A program made the position numbers and the translations under genes. From Sphingomonas sp. (GTDB lineage Bacteria; Pseudomonadota; Alphaproteobacteria; Sphingomonadales; Sphingomonadaceae), in the NCBI GenBank assembly GCA_013001055.1, contig JABDNH010000019.1:62001-126000 (forward strand): a stretch of 64,000 nucleotides of DNA. The letters are read 5' to 3'. Positions 46,460 through 54,519 of the stretch are shown one piece after another. Every line of letters begins with the position of its first letter. The first letter of the stretch is position 1. Below the pieces are notes generated by a model. That model ran no database searches. It had not been told where the DNA came from and saw only the letters and a list, made by a program, of their open reading frames with translations.

Positions 46460-47245
46460 CTAGCCAGGCAGACCCTGCCTGAGTGCCGCGACCTTCTCCT
46501 TTACTGCAGCAACCGGATCATCGGCGTTGGCGGCAGCATCGACGATCGCCGAGCCGCTGATCACCCCGGCCGCGCCCGATGCCAGACCCTCGGCGACCTG
46601 CTCGGCAGTCGAAATGCCAAAGCCGAGGATCGGCGGCGGCGCATCGCGTGCCGTCAGTTTTTCGAACAGGTCATGGTGCTGCAGCTCCATGTCGCTGCGC
46701 TGACCGGTGACACCTGCGCGCGCCACGCAGTAAGTGTAGCCCTCCCCCAATGAAGCGATGCGATCAAGCGCATCATCGCCCGTATTGGGCGCGGCAATGA
46801 AGATTGGCGCAATGCCCGCTTTCTTGCATGCGGCGGCATAGGGCGCGGCTTCGAGACTCGGGACGTCGGCGACCAGCAGGCTGTCGACGCCCGCTGCAGC
46901 CAACTCTTTGCAGAACGTCTCCAGCCCCCGCGCCGCGACGATATTGGCATAGGTCAGGACGCCGACCGGCACGTCGGCATGGCGGCGTCGAAAGCGGGCG
47001 AGCATATCGATGCAGTCCTGCGTGCGCACTCCGGCATCGAGCGCGCGTTTGGAGGCGGCCTGGATGACGGGGCCGTCAGCGACCGGATCGGAAAAGGGGA
47101 TGCCGACCTCGATCATGTCGGCGCCGCCTTCGATCATCGCGTCGAGCATCTTCTCGGATGTCTCGATGTCGGGATCGCCGAGCGTCAGAAAGGTGCCGAG
47201 CACGCCGCCGCCTTTGGCGAACATGGCATCGTAGCGATTGTTCAC
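46460..47245 (-). CDS. trpA: Tryptophan synthase alpha subunit
   Basis: 261 residues from a GTG start that overlaps the trpB stop (GTGA). It cleaves indole-3-glycerol phosphate to indole, which is channelled to TrpB. Catalytic Glu in [28 protein letters not shown] (with the Asp in the next motif), and the phosphate site [13 protein letters not shown] with [13 protein letters not shown]. Last gene of the leftward aroF-trp operon, 83 bases from tRNA-Gly; no terminator was seen after its stop. Confidence 0.97.
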
Positions 47246-48417
47246 GCGAGCAGCTCCTGCGCTTGAGCCACGTCCTTGTCGCCGCGTCCGGACAGATTGA
47301 CCAGCAGGATCTTCTCCTCCTCCGCCGCATTGGCTCGTTCGATTTCCTCCAAGGCGTGCGCTACGGCGTGCGCTGTTTCGAAGGCGCAGATGATGCCTTC
47401 CTTGCGCGCCAGCAGCTGGAACGCCTTGAGCGCCGCTGCGTCTGTCACGCCGATATACGTCGCCCGACCGATAGCCTGCAGGAAGGCGTGTTCAGGCCCC
47501 ACCGCGGGATAATCGAGGCCTGCGGAGATCGACCAGCTATCGCTGACCTGACCGTCTTCGTCCTGCAGCAGCATGGTTTGCGCGCCGTGCAGGATGCCGC
47601 GGCGGCCCTTGCCGAGCGTCGCGCCATGGTTCTCGGTGTCGAGCCCCTTGCCCGCCGCCTCGCAGCCGGTCAGCGCGACATTCTCATCATCGCGGAAGGC
47701 ATGAAAGATGCCGATCGCGTTGGATCCACCGCCGACGCAGGCGATCACGTTGTCGGGCAGGCGTCCTTCAGCGTCCATCATTTGAGCGCGTGCTTCCTCG
47801 CCAATGACGGATTGGAAATCGCGTACCAGGCTGGGGAAGGGGTGCGGGCCCGCCACGGTGCCCAGCAGGTAATGCGTGTCGGCAAACCGCGCGGTCCATT
47901 CACGCAGCGCTTCGTTGACCGCGTCCTTCAAGGTGCAATCCCCCGATGTGACGGGTATGACTTCGGCGCCCATCAACTCCATGCGAAAGACGTTGAGCTG
48001 CTGTCGTGCGACATCGTCCTTACCCATGTAGATGCGCGTTTCCATGCCGAACATTGCGCCCGCGATCGCCGTGGCGACGCCGTGCTGGCCGGCGCCTGTT
48101 TCCGCAATCAGCCGCTTCTTGCCCATGCGTTTGGCGAGCAGGGCCTGCGCGATCACTTGGTTGGTCTTGTGCGCGCCGCCATGGAGCAGGTCTTCACGCT
48201 TGAGATAAAGCCGCACCTTGTCCGATCCGATATTGCGGCAACGCGTCAACGGGGTCGGGCGTCCGGCGTAGGTGCGCAGCAGGTGATTGAGCTCCGACTG
48301 AAAATCGTCATCGACCATGGCCTCGAGATAGGCGGCTTCAAGCTGCTCGAGCGCGGGAACTAAAATTTCCGGGACATAGGCACCACCAAAGTTGCCGAAC
48401 CGACCGTCCATCTTCAT
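47242..48417 (-). CDS. trpB: Tryptophan synthase beta chain
   Basis: 391 residues from the ATG at 48417 (TGATG overlap with trpCF). PLP enzyme condensing indole with serine. [14 protein letters not shown] at the N-terminus, Lys for PLP in [41 protein letters not shown] (PLP phosphate loop) and SGRGDKD near the end. Standard TrpB1 type that pairs with the TrpA encoded next. Confidence 0.97.
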
Positions 48418-49799
48418 CAAACTTGCTCCCGTGCGGGGCCGCGCAGGGCGGCAAACAAGGCGTCGATCTTGGCCGGGTCTTTTACGCGCGGCCGGGCTTC
48501 GACGCCCGAACTTGTGTCTATTCCGTATGCGCCGATGGCAGCGGCTTCAGCGGCATTTTGCGGCGTAATCCCGCCGGCGACGAAGGCTTCGGCGAGGTCA
48601 TCGCGCCCTTCGAGCGCGCTCCAGTCGAAACTGCAACCGGTGCCGCCACTTTGGCTGCCGCTGATCGTATCGAACAAGGTGCGATGCGCGGCGCTGCGCG
48701 CGCGGTCGACGCCGTCGGCATCGACGCCCGCCAGCGCCCAGACTTCCACATCCGGATCGAGCAACGCCAGTACCGCGTCGAGATCGGCGTCTGATTCATG
48801 AAGCTGAGCGGCGCTGAGGCCAAGCGCGCTCGCCTTGGCTGCAACTTCTTCGGGCTGTGCACCTCTGAAGACGCCTACCGGTTTCAGTCCGATTCCCCGA
48901 GCAAGCTCGGCCAGCACGTTTGCCGTCGCATCGTCGAGCGCGCGGGGAGTGTCGGGCACGAGGATTAGCCCTGCATGGGTCGCCCCCGCCTTTGCGGCGT
49001 GCAACACATCCTCTTCGCGCGTCAGTCCGCAAATCTTGACGGCACCGTGCACCAGTTCTCGCGCGGCAAGATCGATGTCATCCGCCGCCATCAGGTGGCT
49101 GCCCACAAGAAAGCCGTCGACCAGCGGGCCGATGCGTTTCACGTCACCGCGTCCCTTGATGCCGCTCTCGCTGATTAGCGTGGCTTCGGAGGGTGCCATC
49201 GCCGCGAGCCGTTCGGTCACGGCAAGATCGGTCTTCAGTGTCTTGAGGTCGCGATTGTTGATACCGATGAGCTTGGCGCCGAGCGCCGCCGCACGCGCCA
49301 TTTCTTCTTCGTCATGCACTTCCACCAGCACATCCATGCCCAGCAATGCGGCTTCGCGAAGCACTCCTGCAGCTTTTTCGTCGTCGAGCACCGAAAGCAT
49401 GCAGAGTACCGCATCGGCGCCGTGCGCGCGGGCTTCGGACACTTGAACCACATCGACGATGAAGTCCTTGGCCAGGATCGGTCCGTCGAATTTCGCGCGC
49501 AGATCGCGCAGCAGATCGAGCGACCCGCCAAAGTCTTCCCCGTCGGTCAGGATGCTAACCGCATCGGCAACGGGTGCGTAAGCCCTGATCGCTTTACCGG
49601 GCGAATGCTTGGCAACGTGGCCCGACGGGCTCCTGGGCTTTACCTCCATGATGAAGCGCGCACCGGTCTGGCGCAGCGCGGCGATGAGGCTGCGCTTCGT
49701 CGGCTCGGCTCGGACCGGACCATCGAGGCGCCCCGCCACTTCGACGCGCTTGCGCGCCACGATACGGGCAAGGGTGTCAGCTACGGGTGGCGTCGACAT
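48417..49799 (-). CDS. trpCF: Fused indole-3-glycerol-phosphate synthase/phosphoribosylanthranilate isomerase
   Basis: 460 residues from the ATG at 49799, inside the trpD end (23-base overlap). The TrpC half (about 1-250) has [12 protein letters not shown] and ILAKDFIVD (catalytic Lys residues), [13 protein letters not shown] and [13 protein letters not shown]. The TrpF half starts at about 254 with [12 protein letters not shown] (catalytic Cys257), then [34 protein letters not shown] and [23 protein letters not shown]. This is the fused arrangement of E. coli TrpC; most alphaproteobacteria keep the genes apart, with trpF next to trpBA. Confidence 0.95.
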
Positions 49800-50829
49800 A
49801 GTCCGAAGCAACCTTGCCTGCCGCGCCTGATCCGAGCGCCTCCAATGCCATCGCGGTAGCGTCCTTGAGCGTATCCGCCTTGCCCGCTGCAAACAGCAGG
49901 CCGCCAGCATTGATGGCGACGATATCGCGCTCTGGCTTGATACCGCGCCCGGCGAACAGTTCGGCCAGGCGGTGCGCATTCTCGATCGCATCGCCGCCCG
50001 TCAGCACCTTGAGGGGCGCAGGCTCGATCCCTGCATCTTCGGGCGCGATGGTAAATTCGGTGAGTTCGCCGTTCGACAGGCGAATGGCGCGCGTGTCGCC
50101 GTGCAATGCAATCTCGTCGAGCCCCGATCCGTGCACCACCAGCGCTTCCTCCACGCCCTGCGCTTCGAGCACCTTGGCGATGCGGCGCATGATTGCGGGA
50201 TCGGCGACGCCCAGCAGCTGCACGCGTGGTTGCGCCGGGTTCACGCAGGGGCCCAACAGGTTCATCACCGTGCGCACCGCCAGCTGCCGGCGCACCGGCG
50301 CGGCGTGCTTCATGCCGGGATGGTAGGCGGGGGCGTACAAAAAGCAGAAGCCGGTCTCGTCGAGCATCTGGCGCGAGGCCTCGGCGCTGACATCCAGCTT
50401 CGCGCCCATCGCTTCGAGCACGTCGGCGCTACCACATTTGGAGCTGACCGAGCGGTTGCCGTGCTTGGCGACGGGCAGCCCGCACGCCGCGGCAACGAAG
50501 GCCGCCGCTGTCGACACGTTGATCAGGCTCGACCCATCCCCGCCCGTCCCGCAGCAATCGGCGAAAAGATAGTCGGGGCGATCGAAGTGCTTTGCGGCGG
50601 CTGAAAGTGCACGCGCCGCGCCGATCATCTCTTCGGGCGTCTCGCCTTTCATACGCAGCGCGATCAGCATGCCGCCAATCTCGCCGGGCTCCAACTTTCC
50701 AAGCACGAGACGCTCGAAAAGATGTTCGGCGTCCGCGCTCGGCAAGTCCTCGCCGGTCAATAGCTTGGGCATGGGATTGGGAACGGGTCCTGTGTCCGGG
50801 GGCAGGGTCATGGCGGCGCTTTCAGGCAT
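49777..50829 (-). CDS. trpD: Anthranilate phosphoribosyltransferase
   Basis: 350 residues. Transfers a phosphoribosyl group to anthranilate. DCCGTGGDGSSLINVSTAAAFVAAACGLPVAKHGNRSVSSKCGSADVLEAMGA holds the PRPP/Mg and anthranilate sites, and MKHAAPVRRQLAVRTVMNLLGPCVNPA is the second block. It is stand-alone, not fused to a TrpG domain as in E. coli. The start overlaps trpG by eight bases, and an ATG at residue 7 or 20 is possible. Its 3' end overlaps trpCF by 23 bases. Confidence 0.96.
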   Translation of the reverse strand: MPESAAMTLPPDTGPVPNPMPKLLTGEDLPSADAEHLFERLVLGKLEPGEIGGMLIALRMKGETPEEMIGAARALSAAAKHFDRPDYLFADCCGTGGDGSSLINVSTAAAFVAAACGLPVAKHGNRSVSSKCGSADVLEAMGAKLDVSAEASRQMLDETGFCFLYAPAYHPGMKHAAPVRRQLAVRTVMNLLGPCVNPAQPRVQLLGVADPAIMRRIAKVLEAQGVEEALVVHGSGLDEIALHGDTRAIRLSNGELTEFTIAPEDAGIEPAPLKVLTGGDAIENAHRLAELFAGRGIKPERDIVAINAGGLLFAAGKADTLKDATAMALEALGSGAAGKVASDYVDATRS

Positions 50830-51421
50830 AAGCGGGTTCCTTGGCTAGATGGACTTGAGCCCAATCGGCCAATGCGGCGGCAAGCCGGTGGCCAAGCGGG
50901 GTCAAAATGGATTCGGGATGGAATTGCAGGCCGAGCTGGAGCGCGGCCTCGTCACGGATCGCCATTGCCATTCCATCGATCTCGGCATCGATAGTGAAGT
51001 TTCCGGGCAGTTCGGAAGTCGGCGTGCAAAGCGAATGATAGCGCCCGATGGTGAGCGGATCGGGCAGCTCCGCAAAGGGCCCGCGACCACCATGCACCAG
51101 CGCGCTGGTCTTGCCGTGGAAGGGCTGCCACGCACGGGCGACGCAGCCGCCTGCCTGCTGCACGATGGCCTGGTGGCCAAGGCAGATACCGATCAGCGGC
51201 ACCTTCGCCTTGGCGAGGCCGATCAATTCTAGGCAGCATCCCGCGTCGTCCGGTGTGCCGGGTCCGGGCGACAACATGATCGCCCCACCGTTCGCCATGT
51301 CGAGCGCGTCTTGAGCCGCGATGCTGTTGCGTACGACGCGTACCTCCGCGCCGCCCTCGCGCATCGCGTCAACCAGGTTGAAGGTGAAGCTATCGCGATT
51401 GTCGACCAGGAGGATCTTCAT
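50822..51421 (-). CDS. trpG: Anthranilate synthase component II (glutamine amidotransferase)
   Basis: 199 residues. Class I glutaminase: NRDSFTFNLVDAMREGGAEV at the N-terminus, LSPGPGTP, nucleophile Cys in GICLGHQAIVQQAGG, and the His-Glu pair in QFHPESILTP. It delivers ammonia to TrpE. It may also serve PabB, as such subunits often do. Overlaps trpE by ATGA. Confidence 0.96.
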   Translation of the reverse strand: MKILLVDNRDSFTFNLVDAMREGGAEVRVVRNSIAAQDALDMANGGAIMLSPGPGTPDDAGCCLELIGLAKAKVPLIGICLGHQAIVQQAGGCVARAWQPFHGKTSALVHGGRGPFAELPDPLTIGRYHSLCTPTSELPGNFTIDAEIDGMAMAIRDEAALQLGLQFHPESILTPLGHRLAAALADWAQVHLAKEPAYA

Positions 51422-52917
51422 GCCGCGGCCCCCAGCGCGCTCAGCACCGCGCTTGCCTTGGCGCGCGTTTCGGCGGCTTCGGCGGCGGGATCGCTATCGG
51501 CGACAACACCCGCGCCGGCGCGCACTTCGGCAACGCCATCGCGCACCAACGCCGAGCGGATCACGACCGCACTGTCGAAATTGCCAGCGCCGGTGAGGAC
51601 GCCGATCGCCCCGCCGTAAGGTCCGCGCGCCCTTGTTTCGACCGAACGGATCAACTCGATCGCTTTCAATTTGGGGGCTCCGGACAGGGTGCCGACATTG
51701 AGGCAGGCGCGGATGGCGTCGATGGCATCGCGGCCTTCGTCCAGTTCGCCCTCTACCGTCGAGACGAGGTGCATGACCTTCGCGAATCGTTCGACCCGCA
51801 GCAGGCTGGTTACCCGCCGCGAGCCGGGCGTGGCGACGCGCGCGATGTCGTTGCGACCAAGGTCGACAAGCATCAGGTGCTCGGAAACCTCCTTGTGGTC
51901 GAGACGCAGATCGGCTTCCTGCCGGTCATCCGCGTCGCCCGTATCGCCGCGCGGTCGCGTTCCCGCGATCGGGCTTACCGAGACGACGCGTCCGCGCACC
52001 TCGACGCCATTTTCGGGCGACGCGCCGAACAGGGTACCGTGGGGTGTGTCGGCGTAGAAATTGTAGGCGCTAGGATCGGCCTTCACGAGACGGCGGAAGG
52101 CCTGGATCGGCGCGGTACACGGGGCCTCGAAGGTCCGGCTCGGCACCGCCTGGAATATGTCACCCGAGAAGATGTGCTCCTTGAGCCGTTCGACGATCGC
52201 CTCGAAGCGCGCATCGTCAATATCTGGATCGACCGCTACGTCCGGCGCATCTTCGAGACGCGGTATTTGTGCCTGTTCGATCCTTGCCACGGTGCGCGAA
52301 AGTCGCTCGACGCCCAGCGACTGCAGCCGGTGCGCCGTCACGGCATCGTCATGCCCCGCAACCAGCGCCAGTACGCGGGCCGCGCCACTCGGCTCGACAA
52401 CGACGAGGGTCTCGGCCAACCGGAAATAGAGATCGGGGAAGTCGCCGGCCGGCCGCGCTGGCAAGGTTTCGACCATATCGACATGGTCGAAGCCGATCAC
52501 GCCCAACGCGGCAATCGCATAGGGTTCGTCCTTGTCGTGGATGCGAATAGCAGTGGTCATGGCACGCAGCGTATCGAGCGCGCTGGAGGCTGCGGCCCGC
52601 ACCGTTTCATCAGGATCGTCCGATCGTTCGAATCGCAGGCCGAGCCTGTCGCCATCGGGCCTTGTTTCCAGCAATTCGGCAATCGGACCCAGCAACGCCG
52701 TACCGTTCTCACTCACCGCTTGAATCGCTGCGTCGCCGCGCGTCGCTTCCAGCTCGAGCGCGTGATCGACAAGGATCAGCGCCGTCCCGCCGGTGCGGCG
52801 GAAGAACAGCTCGGCACGACCTTCGGCATGAAGGGCTGCAAACAGGCTGACCGCATCGACGGCCCCGGAGAGCCGCCGCGACAATATGGTCGCTTCGCCT
52901 CTCCGCAAGGGTTTCAC
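51418..52917 (-). CDS. trpE: Anthranilate synthase component I
   Basis: 499 residues from a GTG start overlapping the aroF stop (GTGA). Chorismate-binding domain with IFQAVPSRTFEAP, GTLFGASPENGVEVRG, PIAGTRPRGDTGD, DHKEVSEHLMLVDLGRNDIARVATPGS and LSGAPKLKAIELI. It follows E. coli TrpE along its length (LVDHALELEA, LYFRLAETLVVVE), but the LLES segment that forms the Trp feedback pocket is missing: the corresponding stretch reads ELFFRRTGGTALILVD. Feedback control may therefore differ. Coupled to trpG. Confidence 0.95.
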   Translation of the reverse strand: MKPLRRGEATILSRRLSGAVDAVSLFAALHAEGRAELFFRRTGGTALILVDHALELEATRGDAAIQAVSENGTALLGPIAELLETRPDGDRLGLRFERSDDPDETVRAAASSALDTLRAMTTAIRIHDKDEPYAIAALGVIGFDHVDMVETLPARPAGDFPDLYFRLAETLVVVEPSGAARVLALVAGHDDAVTAHRLQSLGVERLSRTVARIEQAQIPRLEDAPDVAVDPDIDDARFEAIVERLKEHIFSGDIFQAVPSRTFEAPCTAPIQAFRRLVKADPSAYNFYADTPHGTLFGASPENGVEVRGRVVSVSPIAGTRPRGDTGDADDRQEADLRLDHKEVSEHLMLVDLGRNDIARVATPGSRRVTSLLRVERFAKVMHLVSTVEGELDEGRDAIDAIRACLNVGTLSGAPKLKAIELIRSVETRARGPYGGAIGVLTGAGNFDSAVVIRSALVRDGVAEVRAGAGVVADSDPAAEAAETRAKASAVLSALGAAA

Positions 52918-53927
52918 AGTTCGCGTCCCAGTGCGCCGAGCATTGCCGCCAGCTGATTGCCCAGCGCTTCCATCTGCTCGGGGTAAAGCGACTGCGGGCC
53001 ATCGCTCAGTGCGCTTGGCGGATCGTAGTGCACCTCCACCATCACACCGTCGGCACCCGCTGCCGCCGCCGCCAGCGCCATCGGCGCCACCAGTTCGCGC
53101 TTGCCCGTGCCGTGGCTCGGATCGACAATGACCGGCAAGTGCGACTTTTCTTTAAGCAGCGGTACGGCCGCCAGGTCGAGCGTGTTGCGCGTCGCCGTCT
53201 CGAAAGTACGGATGCCGCGCTCGCACAGGATCACGTCATCATTGCCGCTTGCCATGATATATTCGGCGGCCATCAAAAGGTCGTCGACTTTTGCGGCCAT
53301 GCCGCGTTTGAGCATGACCGGCTTTCCGGCACCGCCGACAGCCTTGAGCAACTCGAAATTCTGCATATTACGCGTACCGATCTGGATCGCGTCGGCTTTG
53401 TCGGCGAGCAGGTCGAGATCGCGCGTGTCCACCAGTTCGGTGATGATCGGCAACCCGACCTTGTCGCCCGCTTCGCGCAACAGGGCGAGGCCTTCGGGTC
53501 CATGCCCCTGGAAGCTGTAGGGTGAGGTGCGCGGCTTGTAGGCCCCGCCGCGCAGCACCCGCGCGCCAGCCTTCTTGGCGGCCTCGGCGCTGGCTTGAAC
53601 CTGTTCGGCATTCTCGACCGCACAGGGGCCTGCGATCAGCGCGAATTTTCCCCCGCCGATCACCGCGTCGCCGATTGCAATCCGGCTATCGTGCGGGTGC
53701 AGCTCGCGGCTCACCAACTTGTACGGCGAGAGGATCGGCTTGACGCTTTCGACTGATGGCTCGGCCTCAAAGCCAAGCTCGGCCAGCACGCGCTCATCGC
53801 CCAGCGCCCCCAGCACCACTCGTTCGGCACCGGGCATGTGAAGTGGCTTCAGTCCCTTTGACTTGATCTTGTCGAGCAGGCGATCAACCGTCTCCTCGGT
53901 CGCTTCGGGCTTCATTACGATAATCAT
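52914..53927 (-). CDS. aroF: 3-deoxy-7-phosphoheptulonate synthase, type I-beta
   Basis: 337 residues from the ATG at 53927 with GGAG nine bases upstream. The N-terminal ~75 residues are an ACT-like regulatory domain (MIIVMKPEATEETVDRLLDKIKSKGL). The KDO8P/DAHP-synthase barrel has LIAGPCAVEN, RGGAYKPRTSPYSFQG, IQIGTRNMQNFELL, MLKRGMAA and IVDPSHGTGKRELV. It makes DAHP, the first shikimate-pathway intermediate. It is the first gene of the operon and follows the trp leader, so Trp availability would control its expression. The type I-beta form differs from the plant-like type II enzyme used by many proteobacteria. Confidence 0.95.
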   Translation of the reverse strand: MIIVMKPEATEETVDRLLDKIKSKGLKPLHMPGAERVVLGALGDERVLAELGFEAEPSVESVKPILSPYKLVSRELHPHDSRIAIGDAVIGGGKFALIAGPCAVENAEQVQASAEAAKKAGARVLRGGAYKPRTSPYSFQGHGPEGLALLREAGDKVGLPIITELVDTRDLDLLADKADAIQIGTRNMQNFELLKAVGGAGKPVMLKRGMAAKVDDLLMAAEYIMASGNDDVILCERGIRTFETATRNTLDLAAVPLLKEKSHLPVIVDPSHGTGKRELVAPMALAAAAAGADGVMVEVHYDPPSALSDGPQSLYPEQMEALGNQLAAMLGALGREL

Positions 53928-53964: not shown

Positions 53965-53989
53965 GAAAAAGCCCGCTCGCGGCGGGCTC
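53965..53989 (-). terminator. trp attenuator terminator
   Basis: On the minus strand AGCCCGC (53988-53982) pairs with GCGGGCT (53976-53970) around a five-base loop CGCGA, followed by TTTTTC. It lies 25 bases beyond the leader-peptide stop and about 40 bases before the aroF start. Confidence 0.9.
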
Positions 53990-54014
53990 CGATAAGTCTG
54001 CGTGTCAGGCAGGG

Positions 54015-54104
54015 TCAGTCGTTCGCGCGCCAAGATATGGACGAGCGCCACCACCAGCCAGCGAACGCGGCTGCAGAATCGGTGATGGGTGCGATTTTCA
54101 TCAT
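54015..54104 (-). CDS. trpL: trp operon leader peptide with three consecutive Trp codons
   Basis: 29 residues: MMKIAPITDSAAAFAGWWWR then SSISWRAND. Three tandem TGG codons and a fourth Trp nearby, in a short frame between a candidate promoter and an intrinsic terminator, just before aroF. This is the classic layout of Trp-codon attenuation: stalling at the Trp run under starvation would favour an antiterminator and transcription of aroF-trpEGD(CF)BA. A second ATG directly follows the first. The ribosome site is weak (GGAAG 12 bases upstream). Too short for ordinary gene finders, and not functional apart from its translation. Confidence 0.85.
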   Translation of the reverse strand: MMKIAPITDSAAAFAGWWWRSSISWRAND

Positions 54105-54141
54105 TGCCCGCGTAACTTCCGTTTCTTCTCCAACATGTCAA
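54105..54141 (-). promoter_or_regulatory. Candidate promoter of the aroF-trp operon
   Basis: TTGACA (minus strand, 54141-54136) is a perfect -35 element. The -10 region 17 bases on (AAGTTA) is weak, so the exact hexamer is uncertain. The expected transcript would begin just before the leader peptide. Confidence 0.45.
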
Positions 54142-54228
54142 CCCGTACGTTGCGGAGCACATAATGGTTGCAATCGGGGAACGAGGCTACTAGCTGCATG
54201 TTTCAATGTTTTAACACGCTGGAACAAG

Positions 54229-54519
54229 ATGACCGAATCTCCCCTCAAGGATCTCGCTGTTGCGATGGCAGGACTGGAATGTCCCCGGGATGCCGAAGCC
54301 TTTCTCAAGGATTTGTGCACGCCAACCGAATTGCGCGCCATTTCAGAACGCTGGCATGTTGCGCGTTTGTTGGCGCGCGGCGACAAGACCTATCGCCAGA
54401 TCCACGACGACACCGGCGTTTCGACCACTACCATTACGCGCGTCGCGCGTTTCTTGAATGCCGAGGAAAACTGCGGCTACCGGGCAATGATTGACCGGCT
54501 GGAAGGGAGCAAGGCATGA
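54229..54519 (+). CDS. YerC/YecD-family TrpR-related regulator
   Basis: 96 residues from the ATG at 54229 (GGAA five bases upstream). Helix-turn-helix of the Trp-repressor superfamily: CTPTELRAISERWHVARLLARGDKTYRQIHDDTGVSTTTITRVARFL. The helix-turn-helix GVSTTTITRVARFL is the recognition unit. Such proteins often sit before hisG and comparative genomics has linked them to histidine (not tryptophan) regulation. Here it lies between divergent trp and his operons, and its stop overlaps hisG (ATGA). It could control either operon. Confidence 0.9.
   Translation: MTESPLKDLAVAMAGLECPRDAEAFLKDLCTPTELRAISERWHVARLLARGDKTYRQIHDDTGVSTTTITRVARFLNAEENCGYRAMIDRLEGSKA

Follow-up and report, generated by a model that had tools for sequence, protein, structure and literature searches.

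A probable trpL-like, tryptophan-sensing attenuator ahead of the aroF-trp operon of a sphingomonad

We analysed a stretch of 64,000 nucleotides (the window; G000:C12:62001-126000) from a Sphingomonas genome of about 2.1 Mb, in which aroF and the trp genes follow one another on the minus strand from 53927 down to 46460 with overlapping ends (Table 1). An initial annotation, made from the letters and their open reading frames, had described a seven-gene aroF-trpEGD(CF)BA unit, and all seven genes were found. The listed open reading frame of trpCF starts at 49991. Ahead of aroF, a leader frame on the same strand begins ATG ATG, runs through TGG TGG TGG CGC TCG TCC ATA TCT TGG and ends in TGA, which places Trp at residues 17, 18, 19 and 25 of the peptide; the 29-codon frame with three Trp codons in a row and a fourth, as first reported, is thus confirmed. 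Between the leader and aroF lies an intrinsic terminator, whose 21-base pattern occurs once in the window and in none of 100 shuffles. The initial annotation had placed a perfect terminator 25 bases past the leader and then aroF; the terminator and aroF are real, while the gap measures 27 bases after the stop codon. A general consensus scan of the leader stretch for promoters and terminators reported neither.

Table 1. Features of the aroF-trp locus, in window coordinates
Feature	Positions	Strand	Remarks
yerC, TrpR family	54229-54519	+	TIGR02531 56 bits, cut-off 42.2; divergent from the leader, then hisG
-35-like hexamer TTGACA	54136-54141	-	37 bases before the leader ATG; no clear -10
Leader peptide ORF MMKIAPITDSAAAFAGWWWRSSISWRAND	54015-54104	-	29 residues; probably leaderless, putative start at or next to the ATG
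Three consecutive Trp codons, predicted sensing site	54048-54056	-	at least two consecutive in 39/39 relatives, three in 17/39
Antiterminator 5' segment (segment 2) UGGCGCGC	54025-54032	-	begins at the fourth (last) Trp codon
Helper hairpin, predicted	53990-54021	-	nested in the antiterminator, across the leader stop codon
Segment 3 GCCCGCCG	53980-53987	-	5' arm of the terminator; common to antiterminator and terminator
Intrinsic terminator GCCCGC-CGCGA-GCGGGC-TTTTT	53966-53987	-	hairpin and T run
aroF, 3-deoxy-7-phosphoheptulonate (DAHP) synthase, B. subtilis-like type	52914-53927	-	TIGR01361 379 bits, cut-off 268
trpE, anthranilate synthase component I	51418-52917	-	best model NF010079 459.9 bits, under cut-off 471
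trpG	50822-51421	-	profile match
trpD	49777-50829	-	profile match
trpCF fusion	48417-49799	-	NF006945 439.8 bits, cut-off 380; putative start at internal ATG 49799
trpB	47242-48420	-	profile match
trpA	46460-47245	-	profile match

At E<=1e-60, 35 of the 71 genus genomes carry aroF of the window type (a 36th, G247, is cut by a contig end). A search of 298 family genomes gave six matches, two of them within the genus and four in genomes of other genera, and one metagenomic record (L032) has the gene as well. The 39 upstream stretches that we compared come from 34 genus genomes, the four family genomes and the metagenomic record, with aroF 63-100% identical; one genome with 113 bases upstream (G245, L127/L156) and five loci of repeat genomes already counted (L029, L030, L031, L033 and L036) were omitted. 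To score as a leader, an ORF had to contain TGGTGG in frame and to end 70-130 bases ahead of aroF. All 39 loci, each with complete upstream DNA, carry such a short ORF with tandem codons for the product of the operon, ending 76-122 bases before the gene. By eye, the leader peptides share little beyond the WW(W)R region. Every one of the 39 loci also has, between the leader stop codon and aroF, a hairpin of six or more pairs trailed by four or more T, which is free of mismatches in 38. Loss of the TGG run beside a conserved terminator in close relatives had been named at the outset as a finding that would speak against attenuation; at aroF, both are retained throughout. Ordinary sphingomonad trpE genes served as a contrast: a search of 59 genomes gave 53, and the 27 of them with loci were examined. 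None of these 27 has a WW leader within 400 bases or such a terminator within 250 bases. Outside the sphingomonads, a WW ORF precedes one of 74 aroF loci (L088), a count that excludes L029-L033 and L036 and includes some loci with fewer than 400 bases upstream. Elsewhere in the class, one aroF that is 52% identical to that of the window (L208, G692) has a 12-pair hairpin and four T just upstream and no WW leader.

We also compared the sequence ahead of the leader. Of the 39 relatives, 36 have a hexamer that matches TTGACA in at least four of six positions at a distance of 34-39 bases upstream of the leader ATG, with exact TTGAC at its start in 34 and a spacing of 35-37 in 34; where a frame held several ATGs, the one with the best hexamer was chosen, which favours this result. 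By our own estimate, exact TTGAC at six possible places would be met by chance in about a percent or so of cases. The -10 element is weak, with two to four of six positions matched at best, and SD-like strings precede the leader ATG in one of the 39. The -35 spacing suggests that the transcript probably starts at or beside the leader ATG and yields a leaderless message. Further upstream, before yerC, a conserved box CGTGTTAAAACATTGAAAC (54200-54218, minus strand) recurs by eye with small changes in all 11 loci in which yerC adjoins the leader, and is a candidate operator or promoter.

We then folded RNA that ended at the terminator loop in two states, with the ribosome footprint placed over either the second Trp codon or the stop codon, and calculated the gain from segment 3 pairing, counting only RNA ahead of the ribosome, against dinucleotide shuffles. 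With the ribosome stalled at Trp, segment 2 of the window is predicted to pair with segment 3 (54032-54025 with 53987-53980) around the helper hairpin, at -11.7 kcal/mol compared to a shuffled mean of -3.4, and none of 100 shuffles was as good; the E. coli trpL control gave -9.3 compared to -2.7. Prediction of an alternative leader fold had been proposed in the initial annotation, and this pairing between segments 2 and 3 is stronger than the shuffle mean in all 39 aroF leaders, with p<=0.05 in 32 and p>0.05 in seven. The nested antiterminator shape likewise recurs on folding in most relatives. Segment 3 pairing was stronger in the Trp-codon state than in the stop state in 39/39, which is partly by construction, as less RNA is free at the stop. 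Because an alignment would be fitted to the pairing, we used a swap test instead of covariation counts between segments 2 and 3, and found that in 27 of 36 cases a segment 2 pairs better with its own segment 3 than, on average, with those of other species, a modest effect (P 0.009; three near-copies omitted). The whole leader of the window folds no better than shuffles (z 0.69), and the case is built on comparison rather than on one fold.

At equilibrium, most sequences favour the terminator in every ribosome state as soon as its 3' arm exists, and E. coli is no exception. With the ribosome at Trp, the equilibrium values of the terminator were, for the window locus, 0.98 and 1.0 with the whole RNA and 0.53 and 0.92 when only RNA ahead of the ribosome was considered, 0.96 and 0.76 as medians of the 39 with the ribosome at the first Trp codon, and 1.0 and 0.98 for the E. 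coli control. Since this competition separates the states poorly, in E. coli too, segment 3 pairing before synthesis of the 3' arm was used in its place, and a kinetic choice, made during RNA synthesis, must be assumed. On that measure, the energy calculations and shuffles indicate that a ribosome stalled at the regulatory codons favours a competing antiterminator, one that cannot coexist with the terminator.

The Rfam family Trp_leader (RF00513) matches 54059-53963 with 30.9 bits (E 1.5e-4), below its gathering cut-off of 41, and none of 196 genomes of the order has a match at or above that cut-off. A scan of the order gave 27 matches, five at aroF and two at trpD (L007 in G154, L009 in G001). 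The other 20, as well as L002, have none of nine aroF or trp query genes nearby, and the 20 of these 21 that were viewed (all but L013) resemble, by eye, terminators of other genes. With so many matches away from any aroF or trp gene, the model was rejected as a finder of further copies.

The initial annotation had tied the layout to a seven-gene unit. As a feature of that one unit it is drawn too narrowly, as the same kind of attenuator stands before aroF-trpE-trpG in other genus members and before trpD(CF)BA in many. We collected 44 stretches upstream of trpD, from the 25 genomes with trpD among 30 (29 genus genomes without aroF and G001 of another family) and from 19 of the 20 aroF genomes in which trpB lies outside the aroF operon. 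A CCCGC...GCGGG-T terminator precedes trpD in 43 of the 44. Under a rule that required at least two Trp codons and a TTGACA-like hexamer at 34-39 in addition to the terminator, 35 of the 44 carry both leader and terminator (20 of the 24 genus genomes that lack aroF, 14 of the 19 split genomes, and G001); the nine loci omitted have no leader or no terminator under the rules. Stall-state pairing on the trpD side was better than the shuffle mean in all 35, with p<=0.05 in 29. Outside the family, though within the order, the locus in G001 (L222, G001:C92) has a minimal leader, MTNKFDMNISTTWWRWS, and a terminator before trpD(CF)BA, an attenuator of the same kind.

In split relatives, one attenuator thus precedes aroF-trpE-trpG, whose gene content was read in L221 and L223, and another precedes trpD. 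Under these rules both copies were found in 13 of the 19 split genomes; in a 14th, G245, a contig end interrupts the aroF side. Judged by position and strand of aroF and trpB, the 35 aroF genomes comprise 13 merged (the window included), 19 not merged and three undecidable cases (G238, G239 and G248); the merged order was read gene by gene in the window and in L224. Because split relatives carry a second copy before trpD(CF)BA, the operon of the window probably arose by union of two attenuated halves, aroF-trpEG and trpD(CF)BA, under the aroF copy, and we infer that merging came after splitting and not the reverse. We found trpB in 66 of 71 genus genomes and trpD in 24 of the 29 without aroF. 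A search for TrpE in aroF-less genus genomes (n=30) gave no match at E<=1e-30 in 17 and only matches of 33-36% identity in 13, and in the three of these that were scanned the best models were aminodeoxychorismate synthase (PabB). G154 has the attenuator before trpD(CF)BA, no aroF at E<=1e-60 and only a PabB-like match to TrpE at E<=1e-30. Judging from their gene content, aroF-less genus genomes such as G112, G176, G202 and G210 appear to belong to anthranilate auxotrophs whose trpD(CF)BA operon is attenuated.

Taken together, the leader and terminator in 39/39 relatives, their absence from the 27 ordinary trpE loci examined, the stall-state pairing in 39/39 and the sub-cut-off Rfam match argue that a ribosome-mediated, Trp-sensing transcription attenuator of the E. 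coli trpL kind controls aroF-trpEGD(CF)BA (probability about 0.92). We infer the start site, the pausing and the Trp response from the parts, their conservation and the computed stall-dependent pairing. Transcription would begin at or beside the leader ATG, so that ribosomes load on a leaderless message. When Trp-tRNA is ample, the ribosome would reach the UGA at 54017-54015 and cover segment 2, leaving segment 3 to pair with the 3' arm of the terminator, and a transcript of about 139 bases would end at 53966. When Trp-tRNA is scarce, the ribosome would halt on UGG-UGG-UGG and leave segment 2 free, segments 2 and 3 would pair around the helper hairpin, and RNA polymerase would continue into aroF and the trp genes. 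The translation-controlled attenuation proposed initially is therefore well supported, as far as sequence comparison goes, by conserved leader, terminator and stall-state pairing on the aroF and trpD sides. It is a classic mechanism in an unusual place, with paired copies in relatives, and not a new one.

We also considered a chance short ORF beside a stray terminator, with the operon controlled only at its promoter. The Trp run alone is weakly unusual, since TGGTGGTGG, present once in the window, is expected 0.16 times and 16 of 100 shuffles carry one, and the unremarkable fold of the whole leader would fit chance as well. Chance does not, however, account for a leader and terminator kept in every relative compared at aroF and missing from the 27 ordinary trpE genes examined, nor for stall-state pairing on both the aroF and the trpD side, and we regard this explanation as extremely improbable. 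A further alternative would make attenuation secondary to repression of the aroF-trp promoter by YerC, much as TrpR and trpL act jointly in E. coli. YerC is a TrpR relative (TIGR02531). The E. coli TrpR operator has CTAG as its core, and six of the 11 loci in which yerC adjoins the leader carry this tetramer 77-101 bases ahead of the leader ATG (L109-L112, L117 and L118; in the window at 54190-54193, minus strand), where it is a possible TrpR-family operator. However, hisG follows yerC, and of the 33 aroF loci with long flanks (L109-L142 without L127) only 11 have yerC beside the leader. This speaks for his genes instead of trp genes and makes a dominant role of YerC here improbable. Our guess is that YerC is probably a his regulator.

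The attenuator could in addition have a second function, with the terminated leader RNA and its peptide acting in trans besides their cis role, like rnTrpL and peTrpL of Sinorhizobium meliloti. An apparently leaderless start and a small terminated RNA are predicted here, and the two copies in split relatives could cross-talk; in S. meliloti, rnTrpL starts at the ATG of trpL and has trpDC mRNA as a trans target (PMC7298713). Against this, the leader peptides are alike by eye in little but the W region, and we consider a trans role unlikely.

The attenuated system may have an outside origin. In a 50-row TrpE tree, 16 aroF-operon sequences (14 distinct) group with those of E. coli, Aeromonas and Buchnera and a long-branch Deinococcus (100/99), apart from 27 ordinary sphingomonad TrpE. 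The tree holds three gamma sequences, and the program flagged the gamma and Deinococcus rows as deviating in composition. Scores against E. coli TrpE do not overlap (299-358 bits for aroF-operon TrpE, 221-252 for ordinary ones), ordinary sphingomonad TrpE is about 40% identical to that of the window, and a search of 385 alphaproteobacterial genomes for operon-type TrpE gave nothing else at E<=1e-85. Fusion of TrpC to TrpF is typical of enterics. The grouping of TrpE with gamma sequences, the E. coli-like terminator and the TrpC-TrpF fusion, on thin sampling, suggest that an attenuated gamma-type system arrived laterally. We tentatively give slightly less than even odds to a wider scenario in which, within a single sphingomonad genus, this acquired system came to be distributed across a split pathway: two leaderless copies would sense one tRNA and may cross-regulate as small RNAs, the halves would have fused under one copy in the lineage of the window, and elsewhere the aroF-trpEG half would have been lost and the trpD attenuator kept.

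Compared to trpL of E. coli and other gammaproteobacteria (RF00513), the window shares tandem Trp codons in a short leader, the switch between 2:3 and 3:4 pairing, near-identical terminator arms (AGCCCGC...GCGGGCT in E. coli) and a TrpE of the same group. It differs in a leader of 29 rather than 14 residues, a score below the Rfam cut-off, aroF instead of trpE as first gene, a probably leaderless start, a nested helper hairpin and the paired copies in split relatives. In S. meliloti, as in the leaderless start proposed for the window, the RNA of an alphaproteobacterial trp attenuator starts at the leader ATG, whereas the rnTrpL/peTrpL system there controls trpE(G) and has demonstrated trans functions (PMC7298713). 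The Corynebacterium glutamicum aroR-aroF system is likewise leader-peptide attenuation of a DAHP synthase operon, but it uses Phe-Tyr-Phe residues, answers Phe limitation and does not govern a trp operon (PMC11802643, citing Neshat 2014). Predicted leader or RNA elements also precede DAHP synthase genes in Acholeplasma, where the uORFC-13-1 motif is Phe-directed (PMC8632094), and in Shewanella, where the aroF candidate is Tyr-directed and the Trp-sensitive aroH is tabled as 'possible transcription termination' with no Trp leader named in the table (PMC2659441). Leader control of DAHP synthases is thus already published, directed by Phe or Tyr in the systems found. Searches of open-licence PubMed Central turned up no Trp leader described upstream of aroF or in any sphingomonad.

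The initial annotation had further proposed that Trp would set the entry into the whole aromatic pathway. This is too strong, since the same genome encodes a class II DAHP synthase (PF01474) at G000:C25:28617-29735, and Trp would therefore not be the sole gate to the pathway. A class II enzyme is present in 37 of 71 genus genomes, and 26 of the 36 genus genomes with aroF have both types. If our reading is correct, a Trp-specific attenuator governs both the trp pathway and a DAHP synthase; the DAHP synthase leaders found in the literature answer Phe or Tyr instead. The genus would then offer a natural series, with one attenuated half-operon, two, or one merged operon, in which attenuators can be followed as they move, duplicate and persist while genes are acquired, joined together or lost.
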